A stretch of DNA of 36,231 nucleotides from a virus (IMGVR_UViG_3300027499_000013:1-36231); one strand, 5' to 3'; counted from the first letter of the stretch, positions 1 to 12,897 are shown. The notes: generated by a model not told the origin, from the sequence alone. Made by a program: numbers and translations.

Positions 1-2
1 AC

Positions 3-962
3 ATCCGCGTCGTGGGAAATGAGCGCGGCCTCATGCAGTATCAAGCAGAATGTCTTGAATACGCGGAGGGTATCGGGAATCACCACGAAGTGGCTAAGTT
101 TGAGCGCAATCGAGTTCTTGATCTCATTGATAAGCCTTTTGTCAACTTCCCCAATGATCACGTTGTAACGAAGCTTGTTGAGGATTTCAAGGACGACATC
201 TATGGAGTGTTCCGCAGAAAACCTAAGACAGTCTTGGACCCAGTTGGGACCACCCCGGCCCCTGTTACCGAGATTGTTCTTGCAGAGGAAGAAGTTCCTG
301 GACCCAGCGTGCTGACTAAAGGCAAGGGTCTGTTCCAACACTGGAGTAGGGAAGCGGCTAATCGTTCACAAAAGTACGCAGTGGTGGCCGTGGCTTCAAC
401 TGTAATTCTGGCAAGCTCTCCGGCGCATGCTGGTAATGCTTTTTGTGGCCCTGAGAAAATGTTTGCTGATGCTGGTAAGGAAAGTTCTCAGGGGTTTACG
501 GCGAAGACTGTTCAAGCTTATGATGGTCTAGAACCTGGATCTGGCTACTATTTCCCTGAAATGATGTACCCAGTTGGTGGGGCAAAGATTTCATCGTACT
601 TTGGATATAGGAATTCTCCCTGTGCTGAGTGCTCTAGTAATCATCAAGGAATTGACTTTGCTCCTGGGTACGGAACTAAGATTCGTGCAGCCATTGCTGG
701 TGTTGTTACGGCAGTTGGGTACGAAGGGGAGCTTGGTTACGTTGTCGCTATTTCTGATCGTGTACATATAGAGACAATCTATGGGCACATGATTCCGGGG
801 TCGGCAACAGTTTCTGTTGGAGATGTTGTTGAGCTGGGTCAAATCATTGGAGAAGTTGGAAACTCTGGAGTATCAACTGGGGCGCACCTACACCTTGGAA
901 TCAAGTGGGACGGACGATTTGTCGACCCACTCCGCATACTCAAACAGTTTGCAGGTCGATAA
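3..962 (+). CDS. M23-family peptidase (LytM-like), 5' end possibly outside window
   Basis: Probable peptidoglycan endopeptidase. Numbered from the GTG at 12, residues 190-316 carry the M23 zinc-binding pattern: H211-x3-D215 (HQGID), H259 in a YGHM segment, and H292-x-H294 (HLH). Residues 121-140 form a hydrophobic segment ending in AHA, like an internal signal or membrane anchor, so the catalytic part probably lies outside the membrane. Residues 1-115 are acidic and unrecognised. The frame is open to the left edge, so GTG 12 may not be the real start. The next gene starts within the stop codon (TAATG). It could be a tail-associated lysin or an endolysin component. The M23 call is firm; the role is inferred. 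Confidence 0.88.
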   Translation: MRVVGNERGLMQYQAECLEYAEGIGNHHEVAKFERNRVLDLIDKPFVNFPNDHVVTKLVEDFKDDIYGVFRRKPKTVLDPVGTTPAPVTEIVLAEEEVPGPSVLTKGKGLFQHWSREAANRSQKYAVVAVASTVILASSPAHAGNAFCGPEKMFADAGKESSQGFTAKTVQAYDGLEPGSGYYFPEMMYPVGGAKISSYFGYRNSPCAECSSNHQGIDFAPGYGTKIRAAIAGVVTAVGYEGELGYVVAISDRVHIETIYGHMIPGSATVSVGDVVELGQIIGEVGNSGVSTGAHLHLGIKWDGRFVDPLRILKQFAGR

Positions 963-1153
963 TGGCAGTCAACATTGGAAGCACCGGAAGTAGCACCGGA
1001 GAAACAACGCTCGCTGAGCGGGCCGCTCGAGCGCTGGCAAGAGAGAAGTCTGTCACCGAATCGTGGCGCAAGGCGTGGAAGTGGACATCACTAGTCTTGT
1101 TCGGGAACCAACTAATTATTGTGGCTCTCTTGATTTGGCTCTTAGTGTTTTAG
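962..1153 (+). CDS. Small single-TM protein, holin-like
   Basis: A 63-aa protein whose ATG overlaps the stop of the M23 gene, so the two are probably translationally coupled. Residues 1-40 are polar with alternating charges. From about residue 41 a hydrophobic stretch (LVLFGNQLIIVALLIWLLVF) runs to the C-terminus, giving one transmembrane helix. A small membrane protein directly after a wall hydrolase suggests a holin or lysis-associated membrane factor, but there is no sequence signature for that. It ends convergently with the reverse-strand gene at 1150, overlapping it by 4 bases. Confidence 0.8.
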   Translation: MAVNIGSTGSSTGETTLAERAARALAREKSVTESWRKAWKWTSLVLFGNQLIIVALLIWLLVF

Positions 1154-2295
1154 AACAACCAAGGTTCTGTGGGGTCCTCGACGTATTCTGCGTCGGGGAC
1201 TTCAAAGTTTAAGGTGTGAAGCATCGAGGCAAGGAGTGGCGTCATGGTGCTTGCTTCGGAATGCCTCGGGTGCATCTTGGGAAGCAAGTCATTGTCTTGG
1301 ACGTACTTGGCGTTCTTTGGCTTACCTGAGCGAACGAGCTTAAGGAAGGCATTGACGCGAGCCATGGCCCAACTGTTACGATTCTGGTCGGGGCGGTGGC
1401 TGGTTGAGAATGCTCCGGCACCACGGCGATAAACTGCCTTGAGCTTTGCGAGCGTAACCTTCCGACCGTTCGGCGCTTTCTCGTTGTGTTCCTTGACCTT
1501 CTTCTCAAGAGAAGTGGTAATGGCTGCGGTGAAGGTAACGCCCTTGCCGTCAGAGGCCGAGCCCTTCTTGTTCCTGTCGGAGCCCTTGATCTGATCTTTC
1601 TTGGGAGCCTTCTTTGATCCAGCGGTAGCCGTTACGGATTCTTCAGTAACCGGACCGCCAGCTGCCCATGCGTTGCAGGTGCGCTCCGATGCACACTTGA
1701 AGTCGAGGGCGCTACAGTAGCCGAGTTCTCCGGCAGCAATCGTGCCTTCGGCCTCTTGGTCCATTCCGATGCCCTGCTCAATGCAGTCGAGCACAGAAGG
1801 GGTGCGAACAAAGAAGATGCAGTTACCGCAAAGGGCTGACTTTGCTTCTTGGATGTTGGTGTTCCAGCGCGTTGCCTTGTCCTGCCAGAACTTGTCGTTT
1901 GGCTCTGCGGGATTGAGCGGACCGTAACCTACATTGTCAATTGCGTTCTGGCGGTTCTTGAGGTTGAGTTGAATGTCTTGGGTTGCAGGGGGGCACTCGC
2001 CTCCGTAGCCTCCGGCGTCGGCTGTGACTGCACCATCGGGGAGGACAGCGAAACGGCACAGGCCGCCTTCCTCTACATCCGAGGCGATGATCTCGCAACC
2101 GTTAGGGGAATTGAAGAAGACGCAGTTCCCACACTTAACGCCGATCGCGGCATTCTCTTGGTTCTCCGAAGCGGGGGTGTACCCTGCCCAGACGCCAGTG
2201 TTGTCGTCGTTGAACTTACCGTAGCGGTTGGCAATCGTACGCAGAGCGTCGGCCAATTCCTGCTCTTCGGGAATTAAATTAGGGTTGTAGTCCAT
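1150..2295 (-). CDS. Cys-module protein with conserved RRGAGAFSTSHRP domain
   Basis: A 381-aa protein and the only clear reverse-strand gene in the window. It has two related Cys modules: CGNCVFF with C55, C58, C67 and C80, and CGNCIFF with C156, C159, C171 and C194, plus C201 and C207. The spacing suggests metal or iron-sulphur binding. Residues 231-250 are Lys/Gly rich. Residues 279-345 contain RRGAGAFSTSHRP and WAMARVNAFLK, a pattern I recall from phage head-region or fused proteins of unknown function. The start is the ATG complementary to 2293-2295. A TAAAAT -10 lies six bases before it, so the mRNA is probably leaderless. Exact function unknown. Confidence 0.85.
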   Translation of the reverse strand: MDYNPNLIPEEQELADALRTIANRYGKFNDDNTGVWAGYTPASENQENAAIGVKCGNCVFFNSPNGCEIIASDVEEGGLCRFAVLPDGAVTADAGGYGGECPPATQDIQLNLKNRQNAIDNVGYGPLNPAEPNDKFWQDKATRWNTNIQEAKSALCGNCIFFVRTPSVLDCIEQGIGMDQEAEGTIAAGELGYCSALDFKCASERTCNAWAAGGPVTEESVTATAGSKKAPKKDQIKGSDRNKKGSASDGKGVTFTAAITTSLEKKVKEHNEKAPNGRKVTLAKLKAVYRRGAGAFSTSHRPDQNRNSWAMARVNAFLKLVRSGKPKNAKYVQDNDLLPKMHPRHSEASTMTPLLASMLHTLNFEVPDAEYVEDPTEPWLF

Positions 2296-2307
2296 ACATC
2301 TATTTTA
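2296..2307 (-). promoter_or_regulatory. Leaderless promoter for the reverse-strand gene
   Basis: Reading the reverse strand, TAAAAT (2307-2302) is followed by six bases and then the ATG at 2295. That places the transcript start at the start codon. No Shine-Dalgarno is present. Confidence 0.6.
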
Positions 2308-2366
2308 CATTGGTGGCGGTAGACTGTCTTTAGGATAAAGTAGTACCTGAGAATCTAGGAGTAGTC

Positions 2367-2789
2367 ATGAAGAAAGCACGCGGTCAGGGGCGGAAAAACC
2401 GTCCGACCCCCAAGCGAGTCAAGCCTGTGAAGAAGGGTCTTACTGGGTTGACATTCGATCACCCGACCGTGGCGCATGCTCGCTACGAGCTGGAGTTGAT
2501 CGGCGAAGATCCTCGCATCATTGACTGGTACTGCTCTGTGTTGGCGAAGTGGGCCGAGTTGGGTCACTCTGGATCATCGGCTGAGTTGACGGCGGATACG
2601 CTGCATCGGCTGATGAAGGGGGAGAACCTTGCTCCTCTTACTGCCGACCCTGAAGAGTGGACGGACCGTTCCGATATTTCGGGGTACCCTCTCTGGCAGA
2701 ACAACCGAAACACACAGATATTCTCAACGGACGGTGGCGCAACTGCGATCCACTATTCCGAGTTGCCGAAGGAGGCAGAAGATGCGTAG
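2367..2789 (+). CDS. Hypothetical basic N-terminal protein (140 aa)
   Basis: Unrecognised 140-aa protein. The first 25 residues are very basic (MKKARGQGRKNRPTPKRVKP), which suggests nucleic-acid contact. The rest is mixed helical and acidic (for example ELELIGEDPRIIDWYCSVLAKWAELG). The start is set by AGGAG at 2357-2361, five bases upstream of ATG 2367. It is divergent from the reverse-strand gene and overlaps the next small gene by 8 bases. It contains one CGGACGGT motif (2728) and one CGGACCGT motif (2662) in its coding sequence, part of a recurrent short motif in this region. Confidence 0.85.
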   Translation: MKKARGQGRKNRPTPKRVKPVKKGLTGLTFDHPTVAHARYELELIGEDPRIIDWYCSVLAKWAELGHSGSSAELTADTLHRLMKGENLAPLTADPEEWTDRSDISGYPLWQNNRNTQIFSTDGGATAIHYSELPKEAEDA

Positions 2790-2895
2790 ACTCCCCTTCA
2801 ACCTCAAATATCGTTGGTATTCGCTAGTTGCGTGGGTGCAGAGAAAGGACCTTCCTCAGGTGTGGCCGCGTGATAAATACGGACGGTGGCAGTAA
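2782..2895 (+). CDS. Small basic protein, 37 aa
   Basis: Starts inside the end of the previous gene (8-base overlap) with a strong SD, GGAGG at 2771-2775, six bases before ATG 2782. The product is Arg/Trp/Lys rich (MRRLPFNLKYRWYS... to KYGRWQ). No domain is recognised. The strong SD and overlap argue for a real coupled microgene. The final codons carry the recurrent CGGACGGT motif (2880-2887). Confidence 0.65.
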   Translation: MRRLPFNLKYRWYSLVAWVQRKDLPQVWPRDKYGRWQ

Positions 2896-2912
2896 TAGCC
2901 TTTGTTTGATGA

Positions 2913-3023
2913 TAAACTAGTAAAGCCTTAGCAAGTAAGAAAGACCTAAAGCAAGGCAGAAGTTAGTTAGCGCAAGCTGACTAATTTTGTTTTAGGCCTC
3001 AATACCCATAAAGGAGGTTCAAA
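2913..3023 (+). promoter_or_regulatory. Promoter and structured leader of the NlpC/P60 gene
   Basis: A TAAACT -10 at 2913-2918 is followed by about 100 nt of leader. The leader holds a complete intrinsic-terminator-like hairpin (2963-2993), an outer pairing of CCTAAA (about 2945) with TTTAGG (about 2991), and then a strong SD AAGGAGG (3011-3017) before GTG 3024. The layout fits attenuation, or a short RNA of about 70 nt with read-through into the gene. Confidence 0.55.
2963..2993 (+). terminator. Intrinsic terminator or attenuator, GCAA loop
   Basis: The stem TTAGTTAGC / GCTGACTAA (9 bp, one G-U) closes a GNRA loop GCAA and is followed directly by TTTTGTTTT. It lies upstream of, not downstream of, the SD of the following gene. 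Confidence 0.8.
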
Positions 3024-3611
3024 GTGTACCTCAAACTTGGAACTCTGACCTTGGCTGTCTTGGTCAGTTTTATTCCTGGGAACATGGCAAATGCTGTAGT
3101 TCCGGGATCTTTACTCAATAGTGACAGTATCTGGTGGAACCCTTCCGCTCGAACGGCTATGGCCATACAAGCATTCGTCGCCTCCGATAAGGCAGAGATG
3201 TCGATTGCTGAACGTGACTCATATCGAACAGTTCGAAAAGCTGGGGGACACTCCTACGACATCGACAAGATGGTGTGGGGAGACCGTGTCTTTGACACGG
3301 CGATGAACTATATCGGCACTCCCTACGCCCGTAGCGGGGTCGGTCCTGAGTATTTTGATTGCTCTGGATTCACTCGTTTCGTGTTGGCTAAGCACGGCAT
3401 TCATCTCGAACACTCTGCGTCAAAGCAGCTTAGGGCTGGGAAAATTATCCCAGAGTCTAAAGCGCGACTCGGGGATATCGTATGGATGCCGGGACACGTC
3501 GGGTTTTGGGCTGGAAACGGCCTAATGCTGGATTCATTGAAACCTGGTACTCGGGTCGACGTTCGTGAAATCTGGAGCTCGTCCTACAAAGTTATTCGCC
3601 TTGATGGTTGA
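3024..3611 (+). CDS. Secreted NlpC/P60-family cell-wall hydrolase
   Basis: A 195-aa protein with an N-terminal signal peptide: basic Lys, hydrophobic LGTLTLAVLVSFIPG, and an ANA-type cleavage site near residue 24. The C-terminal NlpC/P60 domain has the catalytic Cys in DCSGF (C114) and His in GHVGFWAG (H159), followed by a probable third polar residue. The family cleaves peptide cross-links in peptidoglycan. The start GTG is fixed by AAGGAGG six bases upstream. It sits behind an attenuator-like leader, so expression may be conditional. A Sec-exported hydrolase in a phage could act in lysis or superinfection control; the role is inferred. Confidence 0.9.
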   Translation: MYLKLGTLTLAVLVSFIPGNMANAVVPGSLLNSDSIWWNPSARTAMAIQAFVASDKAEMSIAERDSYRTVRKAGGHSYDIDKMVWGDRVFDTAMNYIGTPYARSGVGPEYFDCSGFTRFVLAKHGIHLEHSASKQLRAGKIIPESKARLGDIVWMPGHVGFWAGNGLMLDSLKPGTRVDVREIWSSSYKVIRLDG

Positions 3612-3618
3612 GATGATG

Positions 3619-3624
3619 TAGAAT
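3619..3624 (+). promoter_or_regulatory. Leaderless promoter -10 (TAGAAT)
   Basis: TAGAAT is followed by six bases and then ATG 3631, with no SD. Same geometry as the starts at 5139, 31376, 31568 and 32569. Confidence 0.6.
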
Positions 3625-3630
3625 GAGTGA

Positions 3631-4029
3631 ATGATTAAATGGTGGAATCGACTCTTCCGGCGCAAGGCGTCAATGGATGAGTGGATCGACACACAACTAG
3701 CAAGCGGACGGTCCATGTCAGACCTCGTCTTTGTCCAAACAGACACACACGTCGAATGGATTCAGGCAGAGGGGACATGGGCCGTCCCTTCTGGTTTAGT
3801 AGACCCTCGTGAATCTGATTTATATGACGCTGTTTTGGTGGCTGTGGACTTGGGGATTCTGGACAAAGTTCTCTTCGCTAAAGGTGCCGGACGAGGTGGT
3901 CGAGGAGAAGTTGGAAGTATCATCGGCGACATTGAACATCAGGGGAAGCACTACTGGGTGATCGATTTTGACTTCGAGGGCTGGGAAGATTTTTCAAACG
4001 ACGGAACTATAAAAACTGGAGGTGACTAG
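3631..4029 (+). CDS. Hypothetical protein, 132 aa, leaderless
   Basis: No recognised family. The N-terminus is basic and Trp-rich (MIKWWNRLFRRK). A Gly/Arg loop (AKGAGRGGRGEVG) lies near residue 85-97 and the tail is acidic. The alternation of hydrophobic strands and polar turns suggests a small alpha/beta fold. There is no SD, and TAGAAT sits six bases before the ATG. The stop codon region overlaps the GTG of the next membrane microprotein. Early codons contain CGGACGGT (3705-3712). Confidence 0.75.
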   Translation: MIKWWNRLFRRKASMDEWIDTQLASGRSMSDLVFVQTDTHVEWIQAEGTWAVPSGLVDPRESDLYDAVLVAVDLGILDKVLFAKGAGRGGRGEVGSIIGDIEHQGKHYWVIDFDFEGWEDFSNDGTIKTGGD

Positions 4030-4127
4030 TGGACTGGTTTAGTGGATTGGTTGGCGCATCGTTTGCGCTCAACATATTCTTCGTGGTAGCGTTTATTATC
4101 GCTGCGCGATCGCGTAGTGGAAAGTAA
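4029..4127 (+). CDS. Membrane microprotein, 32 aa
   Basis: GTG at 4029 overlaps the last base of the previous stop codon (TAGTG). The peptide is MDWFSGLVGASF, then a hydrophobic helix (ALNIFFVVAFIIAA), then a basic RSRSGK tail, giving one TM segment with a positive C-terminus. AACTGGAGGTGAC upstream supplies a GGAGG SD. An intrinsic terminator follows within 20 bases. Function unknown; it could be a holin-like or membrane-regulatory peptide. Confidence 0.65.
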   Translation: MDWFSGLVGASFALNIFFVVAFIIAARSRSGK

Positions 4128-4144
4128 CTCAACTTAATAAAGAG

Positions 4145-4176
4145 AAGCCCCTAGGTGTCACCCTATGGGGCTTTTC
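4145..4176 (+). terminator. Intrinsic terminator
   Basis: AAGCCCC pairs with GGGGCTT, extended by TAGG/CCTA across a one-base bulge, and is followed by TTCTTGTTT. It ends the 3631-4127 unit. Confidence 0.85.
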
Positions 4177-4188
4177 TTGTTTCTGTGC

Positions 4189-4246
4189 TAGAGTATCTGT
4201 ACTTCGGCATTCGCTGGAGGGAACCTCTTATTTAGGAGAAAAAACC
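4189..4246 (+). promoter_or_regulatory. Promoter and leader for the 4247 gene
   Basis: Extended -10 TGC-TAGAGT (TAGAGT 4189-4194), about 45 nt of leader, then AGGAG (4233-4237) about nine bases before GTG 4247. Confidence 0.5.
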
Positions 4247-4624
4247 GTGAATGATCACATCCAACAAATCGTCAGCGGACAAGCTGTCGAGATCGTGCTG
4301 AACGATGGCACCTACCTGCGTGAGGAAATTCTCTCATGCGACCTTATCGGAGTCGTCATTGAGGCGCTTGTCCTTGACCGATCCGGCGGAAGTATGCAAC
4401 CGCGTATCATCCCATGGTCGTCTATCCGTGACATTACGATTCTGGCGCAATACAACGAAGGTGACGCATTTGAGGTCCTGAAGGATCACCGCATCCATTC
4501 GACTCGCTTGGACGGAACTGTGTATAGCTCCTTCGACCACAGCGGATTCAACAGCGGTATTTCCGCTAACGAATCACCGGACGGTGGAGATTGCCACATC
4601 TGCATCAAATTGAGCACACACTAA
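4247..4624 (+). CDS. Hypothetical protein with possible Sm/LSm-like N-terminal barrel
   Basis: A 125-aa protein. Residues 8-70 read as successive short beta strands with DG turns (G-x-V-E-I-V-L-N-D-G-T-Y, then GVVIEALVLD, then IIPWSSIRDITIL), a rhythm seen in LSm/Hfq-like barrels. This is a weak structural impression, not a motif match. The C-terminal 45 residues are polar, with two Cys in DCHIC. GTG start with an upstream AGGAG. It is coupled to the following microprotein (TAATG overlap). It contains a CGGACGGT motif at 4578. Confidence 0.75.
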   Translation: MNDHIQQIVSGQAVEIVLNDGTYLREEILSCDLIGVVIEALVLDRSGGSMQPRIIPWSSIRDITILAQYNEGDAFEVLKDHRIHSTRLDGTVYSSFDHSGFNSGISANESPDGGDCHICIKLSTH

Positions 4625-4704
4625 TGAGTACGAGTGAAATCCTCGTTATCTCTGTGGCAGTTGCTGTTTACGTTGCGCTGAACGAAGTTCTATCTATGTT
4701 CTAG
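4624..4704 (+). CDS. Membrane microprotein, 26 aa
   Basis: ATG overlaps the upstream stop (TAATG). The peptide MSTSEILVISVAVAVYVALN plus EVLSMF is almost entirely one hydrophobic helix. Like 4029-4127 it is the last gene before a perfect terminator, so membrane microproteins close two consecutive transcription units. No family recognised. Confidence 0.6.
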   Translation: MSTSEILVISVAVAVYVALNEVLSMF

Positions 4705-4721
4705 TCAGTTTCAGTGTTGGA

Positions 4722-4750
4722 GACCCCCTCTTCGGAGGGGGTCCTTTTTT
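4722..4750 (+). terminator. Intrinsic terminator, UUCG loop
   Basis: GACCCCCTC / GAGGGGGTC (9 bp perfect) around TTCG, followed by CCTTTTTT. Confidence 0.95.
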
Positions 4751-5126
4751 GTCTTATGTCTGAGGAGTGTGAGGAACGGACCGTGCAGACTTATGCATAC
4801 TTACTTGGCTGGGGTGGCGAAAAATTGATTGTCGAGGTCGATTTCCATGTGCTCAATATATAAATTTAGTTGACTCCTTGCGCTTTAGTTGGGGTGATCC
4901 TTGCTGATGGTGTTGGTTGATTGACATAGTAGGAGATAGTGGGCCCTTTGTTTAGGCGGAAGTTTTCACACTTATGTCTGACGAGTAGATTGTCACATCA
5001 AGTAAACTTAGTTTCTCCTTAACGCGTATGCGCCATCGTGCACATAGAGAGAAAATAAGTTGACTCCTCGTCACCTCAGACTCCTCAGACATAAGTAGAC
5101 ATAAGTGGTAGGTAGACATAGTGTGT
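4751..5126. repeat. Gene-free region with 16-bp direct and inverted repeats
   Basis: About 375 bases without a convincing gene. CTTATGTCTGAGGAGT (4753-4768) recurs as CTTATGTCTGACGAGT (4971-4986) and inverted as ACTCCTCAGACATAAG (5080-5095). The ACATAAGT core repeats at 5099-5106, and a partial TAGACATA lies at 5113-5120, just before the next promoter. AGTTGACTCCT occurs twice (4868-4878 and 5058-5068). The centre is A/T-richer than its surroundings. The array could be an operator, a replication or partition site, or an att region. Confidence 0.7.
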
Positions 5127-5132
5127 TATGAT
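5127..5132 (+). promoter_or_regulatory. Leaderless extended -10 promoter (TGT-TATGAT)
   Basis: TATGAT preceded by TGT, then six bases, then ATG 5139, with no SD. The tandem ACATAAGT elements end just upstream of the -10, so a bound protein would contact polymerase. Confidence 0.7.
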
Positions 5133-5138
5133 GGGGGC

Positions 5139-5714
5139 ATGACTGACATTGAATTCTCGGCGATATCGCCGACGTCACCCGAGGCCCAAGAATATCTCCG
5201 CGAGATGAAAGAACGCGCAGAGAAAATGGGTCGAGGGTCAAGAGATGTTTGTGCGTGTGGACACTCGATGAAGTACCACCACACAGATATCGCTTCAGGC
5301 TACGTTGCCTGTTCCCCCGGACGGATCGTCTGTGGCTGTAAAGAGACACGGGCCGTACTTCGTACATCGAACCTTCGACGCTTCTTGCACAAGACCTCAG
5401 AGCCAGGATATGGAATGAACCACTCCCTGAGCAAAGGAGTAGCTGCGGCACTAGGTGCTGGAGAAATGGTCGAGTGGATTCATGTGGTCGAGACAGGCGC
5501 TGTTGCCTGTGACTCGTGTGCCGGACCGACTGGGTTCGTCGACGAGAAAGGTCAATCCCCTGTATTCGTCATGGCATTTGATCGTCACTGGATTCGAGTG
5601 TCCGACGGTGACATTGCTGCGTACTCTCGCGTAATGTGTGAGTCGTGCGCTCGAGGTGTCTTTGAACACGGGATTGAGTTCTTGAGTGGCGCTCGCGCTA
5701 AAGCACGTGTCTAG
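5139..5714 (+). CDS. Cys/His-rich protein, paralogue A (191 aa)
   Basis: First gene of a five-gene overlapping operon. Near residues 37-68 it has C-x-CGHS-x3-HH-(x)n-G-Y-x2-C-x-P-G-x4-C-x-C-x2-TRAVLR, a likely zinc-binding module. A second set of Cys lies further on (CDSC, then CESC). The next gene has the same first module (CICGHS...C...CYC...RAVVR), so the pair arose by tandem duplication. The true start is the ATG at 5139, directly after the TATGAT box. An upstream in-frame GTG (5121) would sit inside the promoter. Function unknown; a regulatory or nucleic-acid-binding role is only a guess. Confidence 0.8.
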   Translation: MTDIEFSAISPTSPEAQEYLREMKERAEKMGRGSRDVCACGHSMKYHHTDIASGYVACSPGRIVCGCKETRAVLRTSNLRRFLHKTSEPGYGMNHSLSKGVAAALGAGEMVEWIHVVETGAVACDSCAGPTGFVDEKGQSPVFVMAFDRHWIRVSDGDIAAYSRVMCESCARGVFEHGIEFLSGARAKARV

Positions 5715-6204
5715 TTCTAGTAAGACGGACCGTACGCTTATTTGTATCTGTGGGCACTCACTAGGTACACATGACATGGTTGGCACTGAGTATGCTCGCT
5801 GTCAGCCCTCTACAGGAGTTCGGTGCTATTGCTCGGGCGGAGAGAGGGCAGTCGTTCGGCTGCTCGATGTTCGCATCGGCGGTCGAGGTGCTGCCTGGAC
5901 TGGCGGCCTCAAGACCATGGAAAAGGGCATCAAGGTATATCAAGACGGACGGTACCTCACTGGGCTAGATTGGGGACTACACCGCCTTAGAGAGAAAGGG
6001 TTGAGCTATGCGTGGCTTTCAAGTCGTTGCGACGTTGAATCCTGCAGTCGGCCATTCCTCGGGGATACCGATGTGCACGTGCGGATGGTTGGGGCTGATG
6101 GAGAAATCCTGCTTAGGCTGTCTCGCTCCGAGGATTACACCGGACGGTTCACATTGATTTGCGGAACCTGCGAAATCGAGATGAGGTATCGAGATGGAAA
6201 ATAA
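5707..6204 (+). CDS. Cys/His-rich protein, paralogue B
   Basis: About 165 aa. The N-terminal module CICGHSLGTHD...C-x-P...RCYC...ERAVVR matches that of the preceding protein. A second Cys group follows (CDVESC, then CGTCE). The start is uncertain: GTG 5707 overlaps the upstream stop by 8 bases, while GTG 5686 in the same frame would overlap by 29, and neither has a strong SD. The stop overlaps the next ATG by 11 bases. Contains CGGACCGT (5726), CGGACGGT (5946) and CGGACGGT (6141). Confidence 0.78.
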   Translation: MSSSSKTDRTLICICGHSLGTHDMVGTEYARCQPSTGVRCYCSGGERAVVRLLDVRIGGRGAAWTGGLKTMEKGIKVYQDGRYLTGLDWGLHRLREKGLSYAWLSSRCDVESCSRPFLGDTDVHVRMVGADGEILLRLSRSEDYTGRFTLICGTCEIEMRYRDGK

Positions 6205-6568
6205 TTCTTTAGGCGGACCGTGGAGACCCGACTGGGCTAATCGTGAGTTTATGATTATTTGCATCGCATCACAAGGTGGCAAGTATGCAGACGCTGACTT
6301 TGCTGCAGGACACTTCATTGGTGGACTTGCCGAGAAGTTGCGCGTCGCGTCTGTCTCTGGTACTGTTCCCATAGATGTGGCAGTCCCGGCTGACCTTCTT
6401 CCGCAAATCGATTTGATTGCGATGAAGTTTGGCTACATCGTTAAGCCAGACTGGGAGAAGCAGTTCTACAATTACGTCCCCATCTCGTTCTATCTTGTTC
6501 GAGACGTGGAGGATGTACTCGGATTAGAAGGAGATTCAAGTGAAGAACCAGGGAATGGGAATGAGTGA
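6194..6568 (+). CDS. Hypothetical protein, 124 aa
   Basis: ATG lies inside the end of paralogue B (11-base overlap). The body has a compact alpha/beta look (FMIICIASQGGKYADADFAAG, then PIDVAVPADLLPQIDLIAMKFGYIV) and an acidic, unstructured tail (EGDSSEEPGNGNE). No family recognised. It overlaps the next gene by 29 bases; the AAGGAG for that gene lies within its 3' end. CGGACCGT (6214-6221) sits just after the start codon. Confidence 0.78.
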   Translation: MENNSLGGPWRPDWANREFMIICIASQGGKYADADFAAGHFIGGLAEKLRVASVSGTVPIDVAVPADLLPQIDLIAMKFGYIVKPDWEKQFYNYVPISFYLVRDVEDVLGLEGDSSEEPGNGNE

Positions 6569-7034
6569 GGCAGGAGACATCTTCTCCTCGTGGGAAGATG
6601 AAATGGACGGACGGTGGAACCTTGTTGGATTGTCCACCGAGGTGTTCAAGGGAGAAGCACTAAACTTTATGTCGATGTCAGTTGATGATGTCGGCAAGAT
6701 GTTCGGCGAAAAGGTGCATGGTCCTGCGGCCATGATCGCGGCTATTCGCCTCCTCAAGAAGTGCCTCGTAGATGAGACGGACCGTGAGCGTTTCGAGCAG
6801 TTGTCATTTGCCGAGTCGCTCGAGGTTGTGTCCCAGTGGCACGTCCTGTCGACCAAGGCTGAGGAAGAACGCTCCAAAAAGAACCTCGCTCAGAGGATTG
6901 AGGAGACCAAGTCCAAGATGAAAGAAGTCCTCGAGTCCGTCGGGTTGCCGACCGATTTGCTGGACGGCATCGAGTTAGAAAATGGGACGGTGATTGGCGA
7001 AGATGGTGACTCGGAAGACGACGACTCGGAGTGA
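6540..7034 (+). CDS. Hypothetical helical protein with acidic tail
   Basis: A 164-aa protein. GTG 6540 is supported by AAGGAG at 6528-6533, six bases upstream. The middle (residues 45-105) is helical, including FEQLSFAESLEVVSQWHVLS, a pattern somewhat like phage tail-assembly chaperones. A charged coiled-coil-like stretch follows (EEERSKKNLAQRIEETKSKM), then an Asp/Glu tail. The next reading frame overlaps its end by 32 bases, as in the chaperone frameshift arrangement, but I see no convincing slippery site and no tape-measure gene nearby. The chaperone idea is therefore weak. Confidence 0.78.
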   Translation: MKNQGMGMSEAGDIFSSWEDEMDGRWNLVGLSTEVFKGEALNFMSMSVDDVGKMFGEKVHGPAAMIAAIRLLKKCLVDETDRERFEQLSFAESLEVVSQWHVLSTKAEEERSKKNLAQRIEETKSKMKEVLESVGLPTDLLDGIELENGTVIGEDGDSEDDDSE

Positions 7035-7194
7035 TATCGTCCCTCCGACTGGCGTCGAGGTCGTCGATGAGACCCAGTTTGGTTGGTGTATGTCGGGTCA
7101 ACACTCGACATGCATCGGCCATTATGTGTCCTCAACGGACGGTGACACGCATAAGTGTCCATGCTGTGTAAGTGAGCATAAGAAGGGCGGATAG
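7003..7194 (+). CDS. Small Cys/His-rich (zinc-finger-like) protein
   Basis: About 63 aa, overlapping the previous gene by 32 bases. The C-terminal half has C-x5-H-x2-C...H-x-C-x-C-C-x3-H (WCMSGQHSTC ... HKCPCCVSEH), a pattern frequent in small actinophage proteins and probably zinc-binding. ATG 7003 and GTG 7006 are both possible starts. Last gene of the leaderless operon. A weak hairpin (GAAGGG / CCCTTC, 7182-7204) overlaps the stop. Confidence 0.7.
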   Translation: MVTRKTTTRSDIVPPTGVEVVDETQFGWCMSGQHSTCIGHYVSSTDGDTHKCPCCVSEHKKGG

Positions 7195-7226
7195 GCAACC
7201 CTTCAAGATAGTGTGTAAAAATGGGG

Positions 7227-7285
7227 TAAACTAAGTCATACGGCTGCGATCTCGCGGCACACGCCATTTTTTCTTCGGAGGCACT
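7227..7285 (+). promoter_or_regulatory. Promoter and leader of the small terminase gene
   Basis: TAAACT -10 at 7227-7232 and about 47 nt of leader containing a GCTGCG-ATCT-CGCGGC hairpin followed after nine bases by TTTTTT. TCGGAGG lies before ATG 7286. The hairpin and T-run hint at attenuation. Confidence 0.5.
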
Positions 7286-8218
7286 ATGACTGACCTAGAA
7301 CCAACCGACGGTTCGGGTTCGGTGTACCGCGATACCGACGACACCCCCATCGACCTTCGCCCCGACCTTACTGTCCTCGGGATAGACGAAGTCGATCGAG
7401 GCGTATGCCACGACACGATGGAGAACCGGAAACTCCTCCGTATCAACAAGATCCAGTATCAGATCGTAGTCGACGATCGCGGCGCGTACACCCCGTTCCT
7501 CCGGGCCATCTCCCCCGAGTCCATGACCGAGGCGCGCATCTCGCTGCTCGACAAGTACGAGCCGATCATGGCCGACCCCCGAGATCGGAACTCCGACTAC
7601 CTCACCGAGGAAGAACTCCTCGTCGAGGAACGGGCCGACATAGTTGCCCCGCCTTGGGTGCTCCAGGCGAACAAGACGTGGATCCGAATACGCAAACGGC
7701 GAGATGAAGATCCCTCATACAACGGTATGCCCTCGATCGGCGGCCCACCTCAACGGTGTCGGTATATGAAGTCCGACGGTATTCGTTGCCTCAAGTGGAC
7801 ATCGGGACGTCGAGATGACGACGGTCTCTGTGTGACCCACCTCCCGAACGTGCGCCTCGATACCCAAGGGGCGATCGCGGCTGCTCGTCTTCGGGTGATG
7901 CAGTCTGCTCCCCGAGCCGTCGAGGTCCTCGAAGATCTCCTCGAGTCTGCCGAGTCGGAACCCGTCAAGCTGAAAGCTGCGACGGAGCTCCTCGATCGAG
8001 CCGGAGTACGAGGCGGTTTCGAGATCGATCAGAATGTCGCGATCGATGTCCGACCCGCTGCTGAGATATTACAAGAACGGTTGAAGACGCTGCTGATCAA
8101 TGTCACGTCGGCACCGCTGCCCGAGCTCGAGGCGGAGGTGATTGAAAGTGAAGAAGGAACTACTAGCGATGCTGACCGAGTTGAGGTCGAACATCGAGAC
8201 GAGCGTGGGGAAGACTAG
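7286..8218 (+). CDS. Probable terminase small subunit with zinc-finger-like insert
   Basis: A 310-aa protein. Residues 158-185 form C-x9-C-x13-C-x2-H (RCRYMKSDGIRC...DGLCVTH), the Cys/His signature common before the C-terminal part of actinophage small terminases. Residues 208-245 (RAVEVLEDLLESAESEPVK, then LKAATELLDRAGV) are the helical repeat typical of those proteins, followed by a DVRPAAEILQERLKTL segment. It would recognise the packaging site and load the large subunit. Unusually, the large subunit lies 24 kb downstream. A promoter and GGAGG SD precede it, and a 55-aa gene starts inside its 3' end. Confidence 0.72.
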   Translation: MTDLEPTDGSGSVYRDTDDTPIDLRPDLTVLGIDEVDRGVCHDTMENRKLLRINKIQYQIVVDDRGAYTPFLRAISPESMTEARISLLDKYEPIMADPRDRNSDYLTEEELLVEERADIVAPPWVLQANKTWIRIRKRRDEDPSYNGMPSIGGPPQRCRYMKSDGIRCLKWTSGRRDDDGLCVTHLPNVRLDTQGAIAAARLRVMQSAPRAVEVLEDLLESAESEPVKLKAATELLDRAGVRGGFEIDQNVAIDVRPAAEILQERLKTLLINVTSAPLPELEAEVIESEEGTTSDADRVEVEHRDERGED

Positions 8219-8315
8219 TACCCGCGAAGAGTACATCCGACTGGTACAGTTGGTGATGGACACAGATCGAATCATTCGGCGTGTCCAGGAAGGAATGACG
8301 GACGGTGAAGACTAA
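8148..8315 (+). CDS. Small helical protein, 55 aa, overlapping terS-like and hydrolase genes
   Basis: GTG 8148 has GGAGG at 8134-8138, nine bases upstream. The product is a charged helical peptide (MKKELLAMLTELRSNIETSV to RRVQEGMTDGED). It overlaps the end of the terminase-like gene by 71 bases and the next gene by 11, which closes the gap between them in coupled fashion. Its end contains CGGACGGT (8299-8306). No family recognised; support comes from the SD and tight packing. Confidence 0.6.
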   Translation: MKKELLAMLTELRSNIETSVGKTSTREEYIRLVQLVMDTDRIIRRVQEGMTDGED

Positions 8316-9111
8316 AGACAATCTCGCCGATCTCGCATCCAAATACCTCGGCTACACCTGTGGCCACGGAAACATCTCGGTCTTCGGGAGGCGAGTCGGT
8401 TGGGACGGGCACGCCTGGAACGGATCGTTTATTGATGTAATATTCTTGGACGAAGGCCTCAAGCTTCCGGTGTCCCACACCCACACGGTGGCGGCCCTCG
8501 GCCACTACCTTGCCTGGGGACAAACGGTGAGCACTCCTCGGCGAGGGGACCTCGTCTTCTACAGCTTCGGGATCGAACCGATGGGAGCCCCGCACATCGG
8601 GATCGTGTCGGACGTCGCACACTGGAAACAACACCGACGGTTCTCGGCGATCGAGGCCAACGTTCCTACACCCAACCTGCGAGCGCCGCAAGATCCCAAC
8701 GGTGTGTATGAACGGATCCGGCACAAGTATGACGTTCTCACGTTTGTGCGGCCAGATCCGATCCCACTTTCCACATTAAAGAATGTAGAAAGTGAAATGC
8801 GCCGCAAGCTGCCTCTAGTCCGGGTCGGCGAGATCCGAACCTGTGTAACTCCAGCGGCTGCTGCTCGATCCCCGAAGATCGCACGCAGTGTCGAGTTGAT
8901 CCAAGTTGAGCTTTCGCGTGCCGATGTTGCCGGACTAGAACAAGCGGACCGCGGCGTCTTCGACTCGAAAACTCGATCGGCGCTCGCGAAGTTCCAGCGA
9001 GAACGGATGGGCCTGGTGAACGCAACGGGTGATCCTACACTTTCCACATTGAAGTATCTCGGAAGTTACGACACGCCCGGGATTCCGTCCAGTTTTGATT
9101 CCGCCGAGTGA
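8305..9111 (+). CDS. Cell-wall hydrolase: CHAP/NlpC-like N-terminal domain plus peptidoglycan-binding domain
   Basis: A 268-aa protein. Residues 1-150 resemble CHAP/NlpC amidase domains: HAWNGSFIDVIF, PRRGDLVFYSFG, then PHIGIVSDV with the expected His, then a SAIEAN segment. In the relatives I remember the first block reads WCxxF; here the Cys position is Asn (N39), so the nucleophile may be missing or supplied by C19. Residues 190-260 resemble a peptidoglycan_binding_1 repeat (ELIQVELSRADV...GVFDSKTRSALAKFQRERMG). GTG start with AAGGA about ten bases upstream. Probable endolysin or a wall-binding derivative, placed beside the terminase-like gene. Confidence 0.75.
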   Translation: MKTKDNLADLASKYLGYTCGHGNISVFGRRVGWDGHAWNGSFIDVIFLDEGLKLPVSHTHTVAALGHYLAWGQTVSTPRRGDLVFYSFGIEPMGAPHIGIVSDVAHWKQHRRFSAIEANVPTPNLRAPQDPNGVYERIRHKYDVLTFVRPDPIPLSTLKNVESEMRRKLPLVRVGEIRTCVTPAAAARSPKIARSVELIQVELSRADVAGLEQADRGVFDSKTRSALAKFQRERMGLVNATGDPTLSTLKYLGSYDTPGIPSSFDSAE

Positions 9112-9603: not shown

Positions 9604-9624
9604 ACCGAACGACGCGCAACGGGG

Positions 9625-9658
9625 ACCCCCTACTTGACACCAAGTGGGGGGTTCCTTT
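9625..9658 (+). terminator. Intrinsic terminator
   Basis: ACCCCCTACTTG / CAAGTGGGGGGT (12 bp, one G-U) around ACAC, then TCCTTTAT. First of the repeated cassette terminators. Confidence 0.92.
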
Positions 9659-9697
9659 ATGTTGGTAATAGGAGGGAGACGCCCTCGAAAGGAAATA
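9658..9697 (+). promoter_or_regulatory. Cassette leader: -10, 5' hairpin, SD
   Basis: TATGTT (9658-9663), then hairpin GAGGG-AGACG-CCCTC (9672-9686), then GAAAGGAA. The first cassette of the array. Confidence 0.7.
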
Positions 9698-9699
9698 CC

Positions 9700-9987
9700 A
9701 TGTCAGACACTGAACGCTATACAGAGTTCTACAAAACCGAGTTCGCAACGCTGATGAACAAAACCATCATCGGTGTGCGCGACCTCACTGCTCAAGAACG
9801 CGAGGACTTCATGTGGGGCGATTACGACCACTCCCCCGTGTTCCTGTTCAACGACAACACTTTCTTTATCCTGTCCAAGGACGAGGAAGGCAACGGCGGA
9901 GGATTCGGCTTTGTCGGGTCATACGTTCCAATCAGCGATGCCACTTCCAAGACGGCACGTCAGCGACTGTTCGGAGAGGACAACTAA
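9700..9987 (+). CDS. Hypothetical protein, 95 aa
   Basis: Starts at ATG 9700 after the GAAAGGAA SD. It has acidic and aromatic segments (REDFMWGDYDHSPVFLFNDN, then FFILSKDEEGNGGGFGFVGS), suggesting a small beta-sheet protein. Ends TAATG, overlapping the next gene, so the two share one cassette transcript. Family not recognised. Confidence 0.82.
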   Translation: MSDTERYTEFYKTEFATLMNKTIIGVRDLTAQEREDFMWGDYDHSPVFLFNDNTFFILSKDEEGNGGGFGFVGSYVPISDATSKTARQRLFGEDN

Positions 9988-10319
9988 TGGAAATCACACA
10001 GGACGAGTACGAGGACTTCTGGTCTGAGACGATGGGAGGCGGATGGGAATTCGACTCCTGCTGGATCGACATGGACTACAGCGAGGGAGCCGGCTGGGAA
10101 ACCCCCGGTCGCTTCACCATCGTGGGTGAGGACCCCGAGAACGAAGGCAAGACCATCTCGAAAGAACTTGGTATCGAGGACTTGCTCAAGGCTTATCAGT
10201 TCTGCCTCGACAAGGGCTACAACCACTGCGGTCAAGAGTACGACTGGCAAGACCAAGACACATGCACCTCGAGCGGAATCTTGCAGGTCGCAGTCTACGG
10301 AGACGTTATCTACGGATAG
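9987..10319 (+). CDS. Hypothetical protein, 110 aa
   Basis: ATG overlaps the previous stop. Acidic, Trp/Tyr-rich (DEYEDFWSETMGGGWEFD, CWIDMDYSEGAGWETPGRF) with C-terminal YNHCGQEYDWQDQDTC, a pattern I associate with small phage-only families of unknown role. Second gene of the first cassette. The Cys spacing does not form a clear metal site. Confidence 0.82.
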   Translation: MEITQDEYEDFWSETMGGGWEFDSCWIDMDYSEGAGWETPGRFTIVGEDPENEGKTISKELGIEDLLKAYQFCLDKGYNHCGQEYDWQDQDTCTSSGILQVAVYGDVIYG

Positions 10320-10333
10320 TCTCGACACAGAGG

Positions 10334-10364
10334 GGCCCCCCGGCTTGACATCGGGGGGTCTTTT
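10334..10364 (+). terminator. Intrinsic terminator
   Basis: GGCCCCCCG / CGGGGGGTC around GCTTGACAT, then TTTT. Confidence 0.9.
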
Positions 10365-10367
10365 CTG

Positions 10368-10412
10368 TACATTGATATTGGGTGACATCCACCCGCAACC
10401 TGAAAGGAATCA
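10368..10412 (+). promoter_or_regulatory. Cassette leader
   Basis: TACATT (10368-10373), hairpin GGGTG-ACATC-CACCC (10380-10394), then GAAAGGAA. Confidence 0.7.
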
Positions 10413-10414
10413 TT

Positions 10415-10906
10415 ATGCAAGGAACGCATCACTCCTCCGCTCTGCTTGACACCATCATCAAGCGCAAGGAGGCCAAGGAAAAAGCTGGCCAGACGTTTGA
10501 GGGTAACCTCCTGCTGCAACTCATTGCGGACGAACTCCGTAACTGGTCGAACGATGACCTGTTTGCCCTCTACACCGAGTTCGAATGCCCGGTCGTTGAG
10601 CACACGGACATGGAGGAACGCGACTTCGACCAGTTCGACAACGCAATCTCGCTCATGCGCTTCGCAGTCGGAATTCAGATCGAACAACTCGTCAAGACGT
10701 TTTTCCCCGACCCCGAGCACTCGACCGTGTTTACCGACACCATCTCGTACGTCCAGCAGAACCTGCTCGACCTCGCCGAGTATGTCAAACTCCAGACACA
10801 CAAGGACGGACTCAAAGAGGGAGAGCGCACGCTCTTGACCGAGATTGTGGAGGAGAGCCTTCACGGTGCTATCTACAACATCGACCTCGAGAACATCGAG
10901 TCTTAA
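10415..10906 (+). CDS. Hypothetical helical protein, 163 aa
   Basis: Single-gene unit. All-helical appearance, acidic (DLFALYTEFECPVVEHTD, FDNAISLMRFAVGIQIEQLV). The N-terminus has KRKEAKEKAGQTFEGN. No recognised motif. ATG 10415 follows GAAAGGAATC with normal spacing. Bounded by cassette terminators on both sides. Confidence 0.82.
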   Translation: MQGTHHSSALLDTIIKRKEAKEKAGQTFEGNLLLQLIADELRNWSNDDLFALYTEFECPVVEHTDMEERDFDQFDNAISLMRFAVGIQIEQLVKTFFPDPEHSTVFTDTISYVQQNLLDLAEYVKLQTHKDGLKEGERTLLTEIVEESLHGAIYNIDLENIES

Positions 10907-10922
10907 CGACACACCGAAGCAG

Positions 10923-10951
10923 ACCCCCCTACTTGCGAGGGGGGTTTGTTT
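10923..10951 (+). terminator. Intrinsic terminator
   Basis: ACCCCCCT / AGGGGGGT around ACTTGCG, then TTGTTT. Confidence 0.9.
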
Positions 10952-10955
10952 CGTA

Positions 10956-11004
10956 TACAGTGAAACTGTACCCGAAACCGAGTAGGGTCACGAAAGGAAA
11001 CACA
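10956..11004 (+). promoter_or_regulatory. Cassette leader, weak hairpin
   Basis: TACAGT (10956-10961), a weak ACCC/GGGT pairing (about 10979-10988), then GAAAGGAAA before ATG 11007. Confidence 0.55.
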
Positions 11005-11006
11005 CG

Positions 11007-11300
11007 ATGGAAACATCCGTACCCGGCGCAATTGTCGCCGACCTTCAGCGTCTCGCTGAAGTCCGAGAGCAGAAGAACGCTCTCGACAAGGAGGACACCG
11101 AACTCCGCACTCGCATCCTCGATGCGATGAAGGGTGCAGAGATCGCCACCTACCGTGGCAAGGCAGTTGCCAAGACCAAGAGCGTTCCGCGCACTCTGGT
11201 CGACAGCGACCTCCTCAAGGCGAAGTGGCCTGCAATCTTCGAGAAGGTTCAGAAGGTCTCGCACTCCCTCCGCCTCGAAATCCTCACTGCCAAGCAGTAG
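11007..11300 (+). CDS. Coiled-coil small protein, paralogue 1 of 3
   Basis: A 97-aa protein with an N-terminal helix or coiled coil (IVADLQRLAEVREQKNALDK, ELRTRILDAM) and a C-terminal part TYRGKAVAKTKSVPRTLVDSD, then LLKAKWPAIFEKV. The layout (helix, Y-x-G-x2-VA turn, T-x2-D...L-x3-P) recurs at 24299 and 27643. It resembles the small domain that accompanies YqaJ-type recombination proteins in actinophages, from memory and not checked. A role in DNA metabolism is only possible. Confidence 0.8.
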   Translation: METSVPGAIVADLQRLAEVREQKNALDKEDTELRTRILDAMKGAEIATYRGKAVAKTKSVPRTLVDSDLLKAKWPAIFEKVQKVSHSLRLEILTAKQ

Positions 11301-11314
11301 GCTTTCGCCAACAG

Positions 11315-11346
11315 ACACCCCTCGCTTCGGCGGGGGGTGTTTGCAT
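11315..11346 (+). terminator. Intrinsic terminator, UUCG loop
   Basis: ACACCCCTCGC / GCGGGGGGTGT around TTCG, then TTGCATTT. Confidence 0.93.
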
Positions 11347-11363
11347 TTGTTGTGTAATGAATG

Positions 11364-11405
11364 TAGGCTCGAGGTAGCCAGAAGGTCTGGCGCGAAAGGA
11401 GACAG
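11364..11405 (+). promoter_or_regulatory. Cassette leader
   Basis: TAGGCT (11364-11369; TAATGA at 11355 is an alternative), hairpin GCCAGA-AGG-TCTGGC (11377-11391), then GAAAGGAGA. Confidence 0.65.
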
Positions 11406-11407
11406 AG

Positions 11408-11671
11408 ATGTCTACACAAATGAATACAGTTCCGGGGATTCTCATGAACATCGAATCCGAGTGGCAGGACGCAGAGCGTGACAGCATGCAGACTGGTGAC
11501 CTCGAGGACTCGGCCTACCACACGGGGCGAGCAGACGCACTCCGCGACCTGTTCATCCAAATCAACAAGGCTCTCGATGTTCGCTTCGAGTTCCAGCAGT
11601 ACGTGGCAGACCGCAAGGCGAGCGACCCCGCGTTCATCGCGGTGGCAAGCGAAGTGGATGGTCAGTACTGA
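11408..11671 (+). CDS. Hypothetical helical protein, 87 aa
   Basis: First gene of a four-gene cassette operon. Acidic and helical (ESEWQDAERDSMQTGDLED, then DALRDLFIQINKALDVRFEF). Ends TGATG, overlapping the next start. No family recognised. Confidence 0.82.
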   Translation: MSTQMNTVPGILMNIESEWQDAERDSMQTGDLEDSAYHTGRADALRDLFIQINKALDVRFEFQQYVADRKASDPAFIAVASEVDGQY

Positions 11672-11868
11672 TGGCCGAGTACATCGTCAAGATTGACGAG
11701 CGTATGTTCCACACGCTCGCCATCGAAGCCGACACCGCTGACGAGGCTATCGAGAAGGCGTACCAGATGTTGCGAGACGGTATGACCCCCGAGGACGAGA
11801 AGGAGTACGACTACTCCCTCGAGTCCGATGGGTTCACTGGAGACCACTCCGCAGAGGAGAACTCATGA
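11671..11868 (+). CDS. Hypothetical acidic protein, 65 aa
   Basis: ATG overlaps the upstream stop. The beginning, YIVKIDERMFHTLAIEADTA, then DEAIEKAYQMLRDG, gives a beta-alpha arrangement. This order (strand, DEAI-EKA helix) occurs in many small phage proteins that follow similar ATGA couplings. The tail is Asp/Glu rich. It overlaps the next gene by 4 bases. Function unknown. Confidence 0.82.
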   Translation: MAEYIVKIDERMFHTLAIEADTADEAIEKAYQMLRDGMTPEDEKEYDYSLESDGFTGDHSAEENS

Positions 11869-12242
11869 CGAACTACGCCGTGGTCAACGAACACCTGCCA
11901 GCCTCGGAGTGTGTCTCATTCGCTTCACAGAAGTGGAACGGATGGGTCATCCCCGAGTTCACGCTGACCCAAGTGGTCAACGATGTATTCCAAATGCTGA
12001 TGGCTGGTGAGTATTACAACCAGTTCGGGTACAACGCTCAGACCGACACGGTCTGGGTCGTTGAGCCTGACCGCGACCCGAGCGAAGCACGGATCGAGTA
12101 TCAGGGATACCTGAACAAGGACGGTACTCGGGTCTACGCAATCGGTGGTGGGGAGTGGACATGGGATAAGCACGAGTGCTGTGACCATGTCGAGTACGAG
12201 TCCTACTGTCGGTGCTGTGGAGCGGAGAGTGCCCATGTCTGA
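11865..12242 (+). CDS. Hypothetical protein with C-terminal Cys cluster, 125 aa
   Basis: ATGA overlap with the previous gene. Residues 1-100 look alpha/beta (KWNGWVIPEFTLTQVVNDVF, then DTVWVVEPDRD, then TRVYAIGGGEWTWD). The last 25 residues hold HECCDHVEYESYC-x-CCG, a likely metal-binding tail. The next small zinc ribbon starts inside its last codons, so two Cys-cluster proteins are coupled. Confidence 0.82.
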   Translation: MTNYAVVNEHLPASECVSFASQKWNGWVIPEFTLTQVVNDVFQMLMAGEYYNQFGYNAQTDTVWVVEPDRDPSEARIEYQGYLNKDGTRVYAIGGGEWTWDKHECCDHVEYESYCRCCGAESAHV

Positions 12243-12342
12243 TACATGTCCTAACTGCGGTGACACGCCGTGGTCGAAGTGCTTCCCCTGCTGGGAGCGC
12301 GACATGAAGCAAGCGTTCCCCGGACACGCTTGGAACGACTAA
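12235..12342 (+). CDS. Zinc-ribbon microprotein, 35 aa
   Basis: MSDTCPNCGDTPWSKCFPCW: two CxxC pairs (CPNC and CFPC) in 35 residues, a minimal treble-clef or ribbon candidate. It overlaps the previous gene by 8 bases. Last gene of the four-gene unit, directly before a long terminator. Confidence 0.75.
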   Translation: MSDTCPNCGDTPWSKCFPCWERDMKQAFPGHAWND

Positions 12343-12381
12343 CGGAGGAGGGGGGTGCATTGCACTCCCCTCGCTTCCGTC
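12343..12381 (+). terminator. Intrinsic terminator-like long hairpin
   Basis: GAGGGGGGTGC / GCACTCCCCTC around ATT, extended by ACGGA / TCCGT. There is no T-run; the next -10 begins three bases later. Confidence 0.8.
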
Positions 12382-12382
12382 C

Positions 12383-12423
12383 TAAACTCAAACTGTGAGC
12401 AAGGTCTGCTCACGGAAAGGAAC
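12383..12423 (+). promoter_or_regulatory. Cassette leader
   Basis: TAAACT (12383-12388), six bases, hairpin GTGAGC-AAGGTCT-GCTCAC (12395-12413), then GGAAAGGAA. Confidence 0.75.
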
Positions 12424-12425
12424 CG

Positions 12426-12851
12426 ATGGGTTACTACATCAACATTCAGGAGTCAGAGTTCTTGATTCCAACGGAAAACCTTGACAAGGCTCTTGAGCGG
12501 TTCAAGGCACTCAACCACGACCCGAACGCAGTCAAGGGTGGAGGCTCGTGGTCAAGCGGTGAGGAGAACGAGAGGTGGTTCTCGTGGATGCCCTCCGACT
12601 ACGACCAGACCGTCACCTCGGCACAGGAAGTCCTCGACCTCCTCGGGTTCGACACTTGGGCTGACGAGCGTGGTGTTCACATCCACGGATACGACAACAA
12701 GATTGGTGACGAGACACAGTTCCTCAACGCCATTCGCGACCTCGTTGATGTGTCGTGCTACATCATCTGGCGTGGCGAGGACGGCGAGTTCTGGAAGTGG
12801 ACACCGAGGGGAGTCTTGGAGGGTCGCATAACCTTCCACGAACTCTCCTAA
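12426..12851 (+). CDS. Conserved phage protein of the MGYY...FSWMP type, 141 aa
   Basis: Starts MGYYINIQESEFLIPTENLD and has RWFSWMPSDYDQ, then EVLDLLGF, then GYDNKIGDE and IIWRGEDGEFWKW. I recognise this order of blocks from a widespread actinophage and bacterial hypothetical family, but no biochemical role is known to me. Single-gene cassette unit with a good 5' hairpin. Confidence 0.85.
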   Translation: MGYYINIQESEFLIPTENLDKALERFKALNHDPNAVKGGGSWSSGEENERWFSWMPSDYDQTVTSAQEVLDLLGFDTWADERGVHIHGYDNKIGDETQFLNAIRDLVDVSCYIIWRGEDGEFWKWTPRGVLEGRITFHELS

Positions 12852-12865
12852 CACCAACACAGGAG

Positions 12866-12897
12866 GAGGAGGGGGGCTTGCGCCCTCCTCTTTCTTT
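12866..12897 (+). terminator. Intrinsic terminator
   Basis: GAGGAGGG / CCCTCCTC around a G/C-rich loop with CTTGCG, then TTTCTTTG. Confidence 0.9.

Follow-up and report, generated by a model that had tools for sequence, protein, structure and literature searches.

This locus raises the question of why one short word should recur, almost always on the same strand, at one end of a viral DNA fragment and nowhere else in it. The word is CGGACSGT (S, C or G), and the window, i.e., the whole stretch of DNA analyzed here, is IMGVR_UViG_3300027499_000013, with a length of 36,231 nt.

An exact word largely on one strand

Counting over the whole window gave 15 exact copies of CGGACSGT on the plus strand, between 1918 and 8299, and a single copy on the minus strand, at 2398; neither strand contained a copy in positions 8307-36231 (Table 1). 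The 16 positions listed in a preliminary description of this DNA were thus all exact, and the absence it reported from the remaining 28 kb was reproduced. The span it gave began at 2398 and has to be extended to the first copy at 1918. As it had also noted, the sites fall within genes in different frames and in the non-coding block at 4.77 kb: they are spread over several genes and all three frames, with the copy at 4777 non-coding and one copy in antisense position. Sequences with one mismatch were found 14 times on the plus strand and 11 times on the minus strand of the first 8.4 kb, with no clear halo on the plus strand, and this indicated that the word is exact. A purine occupied position -2 in 20 of the 22 distinct contexts, and position -1 likewise in 20 of 22, which makes RRCGGACSGT the best way to write the unit. 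When contexts were read directly, this longer form was present 12 times on the plus strand and never on the minus strand of the window, always within the cluster; RR preceded 12 of the 15 plus-strand copies and was missing from the single minus-strand copy. The form ACGGACGGTGG, earlier said to be frequent, does occur, but direct reading found it in only three of the 15 copies (2728, 2880, and 6608).

Table 1. Copies of the word and neighboring features, in window coordinates.
Feature	Position	Strand	Comment
Motif CGGACCGT	1918..1925	+	AG before; antisense in leftward DUF5824 gene; same in sister
Sole reverse copy	2398..2405	-	GT before core, no RR; sister's one reverse copy at 11100
Motif CGGACCGT	2662..2669	+	Within Tad3-like gene; lost in sister
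Motif CGGACGGT	2728..2735	+	Within Tad3-like gene; same in sister
Motif CGGACGGT	2880..2887	+	3' end of small ORF 2782-2895; same in sister
Motif CGGACGGT	3705..3712	+	Within ORF 3631-4029; sister has TGGACGGT
Motif CGGACGGT	4578..4585	+	Within ORF 4247-4624; missing in sister
Motif CGGACCGT	4777..4784	+	Non-coding block 4705-5138; same in sister
Motif CGGACCGT	5726..5733	+	5' end of ORF 5686-6204; sister has CGGACCGA
Motif CGGACGGT	5946..5953	+	Within ORF 5686-6204; same in sister
Motif CGGACGGT	6141..6148	+	Within ORF 5686-6204; same in sister
Motif CGGACCGT	6214..6221	+	Within ORF 6194-6568; same in sister
Motif CGGACGGT	6608..6615	+	Within ORF 6540-7034; same in sister
Motif CGGACCGT	6778..6785	+	Within ORF 6540-7034; same in sister
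Motif CGGACGGT	7136..7143	+	About 87 bp left of predicted terminus; same in sister
Motif CGGACGGT	8299..8306	+	Sole copy right of predicted terminus; overlaps GTG start of endolysin-like gene; same in sister
Predicted genome terminus / terminal repeat start (~7224)	7193..7285	.	Placed by homology
Terminase-small-subunit-like protein, 310 aa	7286..8218	+	Homologue of annotated Cece gene
Conserved gene, synteny anchor, left of terminus	5139..5714	+	Homologues in 68 related records
DUF5824 gene, sole leftward gene of cluster	1150..2295	-	
Tad3-like protein (type I Thoeris inhibitor family)	2367..2789	+	Pfam PF25185, E 1e-26

The preliminary description had proposed a strand-specific background count, and this placed the motif far above expectation and on one side only. 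With an order-3 strand-specific Markov model of positions 1-8310, 0.64 copies were expected on the plus strand and at most three were generated in 200 simulations, versus the 15 seen; the order-4 model, which partly learns CGGACSGT itself, gave 2.2 expected copies and a maximum of eight. Dinucleotide shuffling of the whole window produced a mean of 5.9 copies, and none of 100 shuffles reached the observed 16. About 3.8 copies were expected in the remaining 28 kb and none was seen, a zero that was reached in one of 60 simulations. Resampling of synonymous codons, over a gene set in which two or three small gene calls are uncertain, yielded a mean of 0.88 and a maximum of six copies in 2000 runs, versus 13 in genes, in agreement with the earlier statement that the motif is not codon usage. 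Moreover, a blind search was made over the 6 kb to the left of the terminase-small-subunit-like gene, covering every octamer and allowing one position to be two-fold degenerate. It ranked CGGACSGT first, with scores of 41 for the window and 45 for the sister contig described below, the best score in 30 simulated sequences being 13.7. The region is compositionally distinct, yet chance, codon usage, or a compositional artefact is an extremely improbable source of the series, being refuted by the Markov, codon, and blind word tests and contradicted by the recurrence of the word in DNA found only in the sister. The sites were not significantly associated with gene boundaries (p 0.12), and this sets the series apart from the start-associated sequences of actinophages, which lie just upstream of gene starts.

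Conservation in one sister virus

A search of relatives, also proposed earlier, recovered the same one-sided series in one sister contig, IMGVR_UViG_3300010885_033832 (95 kb), which is 86% identical to the window over the cluster region. It carries 17 plus-strand copies and one minus-strand copy at 9617-17536 (window orientation), at the homologous place and in the same orientation. The window sites were identical there in 11 of 15 cases and broken in four, and six sites were present in the sister only; three of these six lie within a sister-specific gene, most of which aligns to gaps. The gene that holds those three copies, at ~13357-13968 (window orientation, locus L027), is M23-like and inserted in the cluster. 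The motif octamers were kept in the sister above the level of neighboring octamers (11 vs. 6.8 expected, p 0.015), and it seems that the density of sites, not their position, is maintained. RRCGGACSGT occurred 15 times on one strand and never on the other in this contig, with no copy outside the cluster in its 95 kb.

The 49 other relatives (~4 Mb) contained RRCGGACSGT at background level, as single scattered copies with the strands about even. Upstream of the terminase-small-subunit-like gene in 83 related loci, CGGACSGT was likewise at background (seven plus- and seven minus-strand copies in 466 kb), and a blind search detected no comparable word of their own in that place. Actinomycetia phage DSL-LC01 is without the series (three plus- and one minus-strand copies in 129 kb), and no strong one-sided word was found in the 8-12 kb left of the terminal repeat of phages Zooman and Cece. 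Several candidate analogues in relatives were rejected: the tandem GTAGTAG/GTTGTGG tracts; GCCTCKGC, GCCTSTGC, and GMCTGTGC, each of which was restricted to a single reading frame of a long leftward gene; and AGGCGAT of Zooman, which had no shared context. CGGACSGT was not found as a motif in the literature library searched, where four papers contain one of its strings, the three listed being two on read-mapping methods and one on lymphoma. Collectively, the series is a real, selected, lineage-specific series of polar DNA sites beside a predicted genome end.

A predicted genome end at 7.22 kb

The window is part of a large actinophage and, through the terminase large subunit encoded at 32569-35106, is related to DSL-LC01 (129 kb) and to Microbacterium phages of 186-195 kb. 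DSL-LC01 itself is a lake-metagenome assembly, the Actinomycetia host of which was only predicted (PMC10611076). The terminase open reading frame encodes 845 aa, into which a segment with Pfam LAGLIDADG/homing-endonuclease domains is inserted; the matches to DSL-LC01 and to the sister extend over only ~470 aa, and the insertion is probably an intein, present in the window and absent in the sister.

The gene at 7286-8218 is homologous to gene 1 of Microbacterium phages Zooman, Big4, Cece, A3Wally, and Pumpernickel, and in Cece this homologue is annotated as terminase small subunit. Its start lies at nt 63 in Zooman and Cece and at nt 50 in Racecar, and seven Microbacterium phage records contain two copies of it. 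The terminal repeat of Zooman measures exactly 17,079 bp, the second copy beginning at 175,652, ~62 nt before the second copy of the gene. In the Microbacterium phages, homologues of 5139-5714 are located in the right-hand portion of the genome, left of the repeat, and in DSL-LC01 a distance of 2 kb separates the homologue from the corresponding terminase gene to its right. Such placement in the cultured phages, in DSL-LC01, and in most related loci indicated that gene order around the end is conserved; DSL-LC01, Zooman, Big4, Cece, and Pumpernickel share with the window both the homologous terminase genes and this order. Given the homology of 7286-8218 to a terminal-repeat gene and the conserved order, the window very probably spans the right-hand part of the genome and enters the terminal repeat, with the predicted end near 7.22 kb. 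GC content and AT skew also shift near ~7.22 kb. On this placement, 14 of the 15 plus-strand sites are left of the terminus, seven of them within 1.5 kb and the nearest at ~87 bp, and no mirror-image series was found at the left end.

Candidate readers of the word

Chi sites are the recombination hotspots of RecBCD/AddAB enzymes, e.g., GCTGGTGG in E. coli, and are known to act beside lambda cos. The series resembles them in being a short, exact, and polar word with many copies in any reading frame, and its orientation would fit entry at a packaging cut. An exact polar word that is indifferent to frame and gene direction, turns over at a kept density, and lies to one side of a terminus is how Chi sites would be expected to look. 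We tentatively prefer, as a possibility somewhat short of an even chance, to read the series as a terminus-anchored polar DNA recognition signal that follows the logic of Chi sites. A terminus-related function, with a reader that tracks along DNA, is moderately supported; where the genome of this phage ends, which way it is packaged, which enzyme takes part, and that the sites are protective are inferred.

Under this Chi-like reading, a packaging cut near 7.22 kb would leave an exposed DNA end, where a directional DNA-tracking enzyme could enter, most likely a helicase-nuclease of the host RecBCD/AddAB/AdnAB type or a phage-encoded equivalent. Moving leftwards, it would encounter the plus-strand word again and again over the first 5 kb, each time from the 3' side, and recognition would save the unpackaged concatemer arm from further destruction and initiate the recombination that rebuilds it. 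The orientation of 14 of the 15 sites, those left of the terminus placed by homology, would suit an enzyme entering at the exposed end. Phage lambda offers a parallel: RecBCD loads there on whichever DNA end the packaging proteins leave free, and it recognizes Chi when approaching from the 3' side (PMC2082072), a geometry that matches the one predicted here. The absence of this word, and of a comparable one, in the 83 relatives that share the terminase gene and the lack of a mirror-image series at the left end count against the Chi-like reading.

A narrower proposal is that RRCGGACSGT is the Chi-type word of an actinobacterial AdnAB/RecBCD, or of a counterpart encoded by the phage, and that a single phage lineage has built up copies of it on the side of the packaging cut that is left exposed; we regard it as doubtful. 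Unlike Chi, the series is found at one end only and the word is not over-represented in the sampled actinomycete genomes: it was no outlier in any of 395 genomes of one actinomycete class, outside which the true host may lie, the top ratio to the reversed control being ~5. The version in which the word is the host Chi is therefore unsupported among these 395 genomes. Nor was a Chi-like excess seen in those genomes that encode the closest homologues of the phage NlpC/P60 protein. No strand polarity of the word was detected in two bacterial genomes listed in full; an apparent leading-strand polarity in bacterial chromosomes was an artefact of listing plus-strand places first, and the full listings of these two genomes mix both strands. 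A search of tRNAs gave no host clues, and the genomes that contain homologues of the M23 protein are too distant for a host to be named from them. It is possible that the word is read by a phage-encoded helicase-nuclease, as DSL-LC01 has three consecutive genes annotated as helicase, PD-(D/E)XK nuclease, and RecA-like protein. The response of AdnAB to any Chi was reported as unknown in 2016 (PMC4824097). If the series is Chi-like, it offers a ready candidate sequence for this response in actinobacterial helicase-nucleases, and it would represent a phage shaping the DNA around its own packaging end.

The KOPS, SRS, and TRS elements, read by the FtsK, SpoIIIE, and TraB translocases, are also exact polar 8-mers that point one way, and the series is similar in both respects. 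It differs from them in that no FtsK-like gene was identified in the window and the word had no polarity in the two fully listed genomes.

The preliminary description had suggested a stoperator-like series, in which a lineage-specific phage repressor would bind the polar word in transcribed genes and stop elongation of early transcripts. We consider this rather unlikely. The sites do keep mostly one orientation relative to transcription, in a run of small rightward genes, the cluster region encodes several lineage-specific proteins, and the stoperators of cluster A mycobacteriophages are similarly numerous, asymmetric, and largely in one orientation in an actinophage genome. Known stoperators are asymmetric and one-sided, and they occur along the whole genome, pointing in the direction of transcription (PMC6550527). 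The series, in contrast, is limited to 6-8 kb, with none of the 15 extended sister sites outside the cluster, and the copy at 1918, which is identical in the sister, stays in plus orientation, against its gene, the one leftward gene of the cluster. Stoperators have a 13-bp consensus for a cluster-A-type Rep repressor; the word is exact and shorter, at 8-10 bp, and no candidate repressor was established. The absence of a significant link to gene boundaries also speaks against this reading. The suggested XRE protein (19839-20114), the sole helix-turn-helix protein noticed, is weakly linked to the sites, having relatives in 17 other loci without the series.

Alternatively, the terminase small subunit could recognize the polar word and thereby locate or orient the cut where the terminal repeat begins, a packaging role that we judge unlikely. 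By homology, the series adjoins both the predicted physical end and the terminase-small-subunit-like gene, as the pac and cos signals of tailed phages do, and the word is polar and absent from the remaining genome. The known pac and cos signals are much shorter than the 5-6 kb over which ~15 copies are distributed here, and the 83 relatives with the same gene have neither such a series nor an obvious substitute. The earlier wording, packaging or recombination-orienting, thus stands as to an oriented DNA signal and gains weight from the adjoining predicted terminus, and the part that concerned packaging alone is weakened by these relatives.

A motif acting in RNA, with an RNA-binding protein reading RRCGGACSGU in early transcripts, is very unlikely: the word is on the same strand as most cluster genes, but the sites gave no accessibility or structure signal (p 0.90 vs. 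the same octamer in other contexts), the copy at 1918 is antisense in its gene, and that at 4777 is non-coding. The stoperator, packaging, and RNA readings all fit the data less well than the Chi-like one. If the word belongs to a regulator or is a terminase signal, it would still be a new, unusually exact, and localized series of polar sites in a large and poorly known actinophage family.

Other features of the window were recorded along with the series. The non-coding block at 4745-5138 is near-identical in the sister and contains repeated CTTATGTCTGA(C/G)GAGT elements in both orientations, among them a 22-nt inverted pair 299 nt apart; it looks like a promoter/operator or origin region. Most lineage-specific proteins had a single homologue among the compared sequences. 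The Tad3-like gene, likely a counter-defence gene, was found only in the lineage of the window and its sister among the related loci compared. The segment 9300-32500 is a long array of small rightward genes, most of them preceded by a GAAAGGA-type ribosome-binding stretch, with terminator-like GC-rich repeats between genes as far as it was read (20000). The 9-32 kb stretch lacks long open reading frames, but no alternative genetic code had to be assumed, since it reads as many small genes between terminator-like stretches. Positions 14394-15140 encode a DprA-like protein (DNA_processg_A, E 1e-53). Finally, three cell-wall-hydrolase-like genes are located near one another in 1-9111, i.e., M23 (12-962), NlpC/P60 (3024-3611), and a CHAP/peptidoglycan-binding endolysin-like gene (8305-9111).
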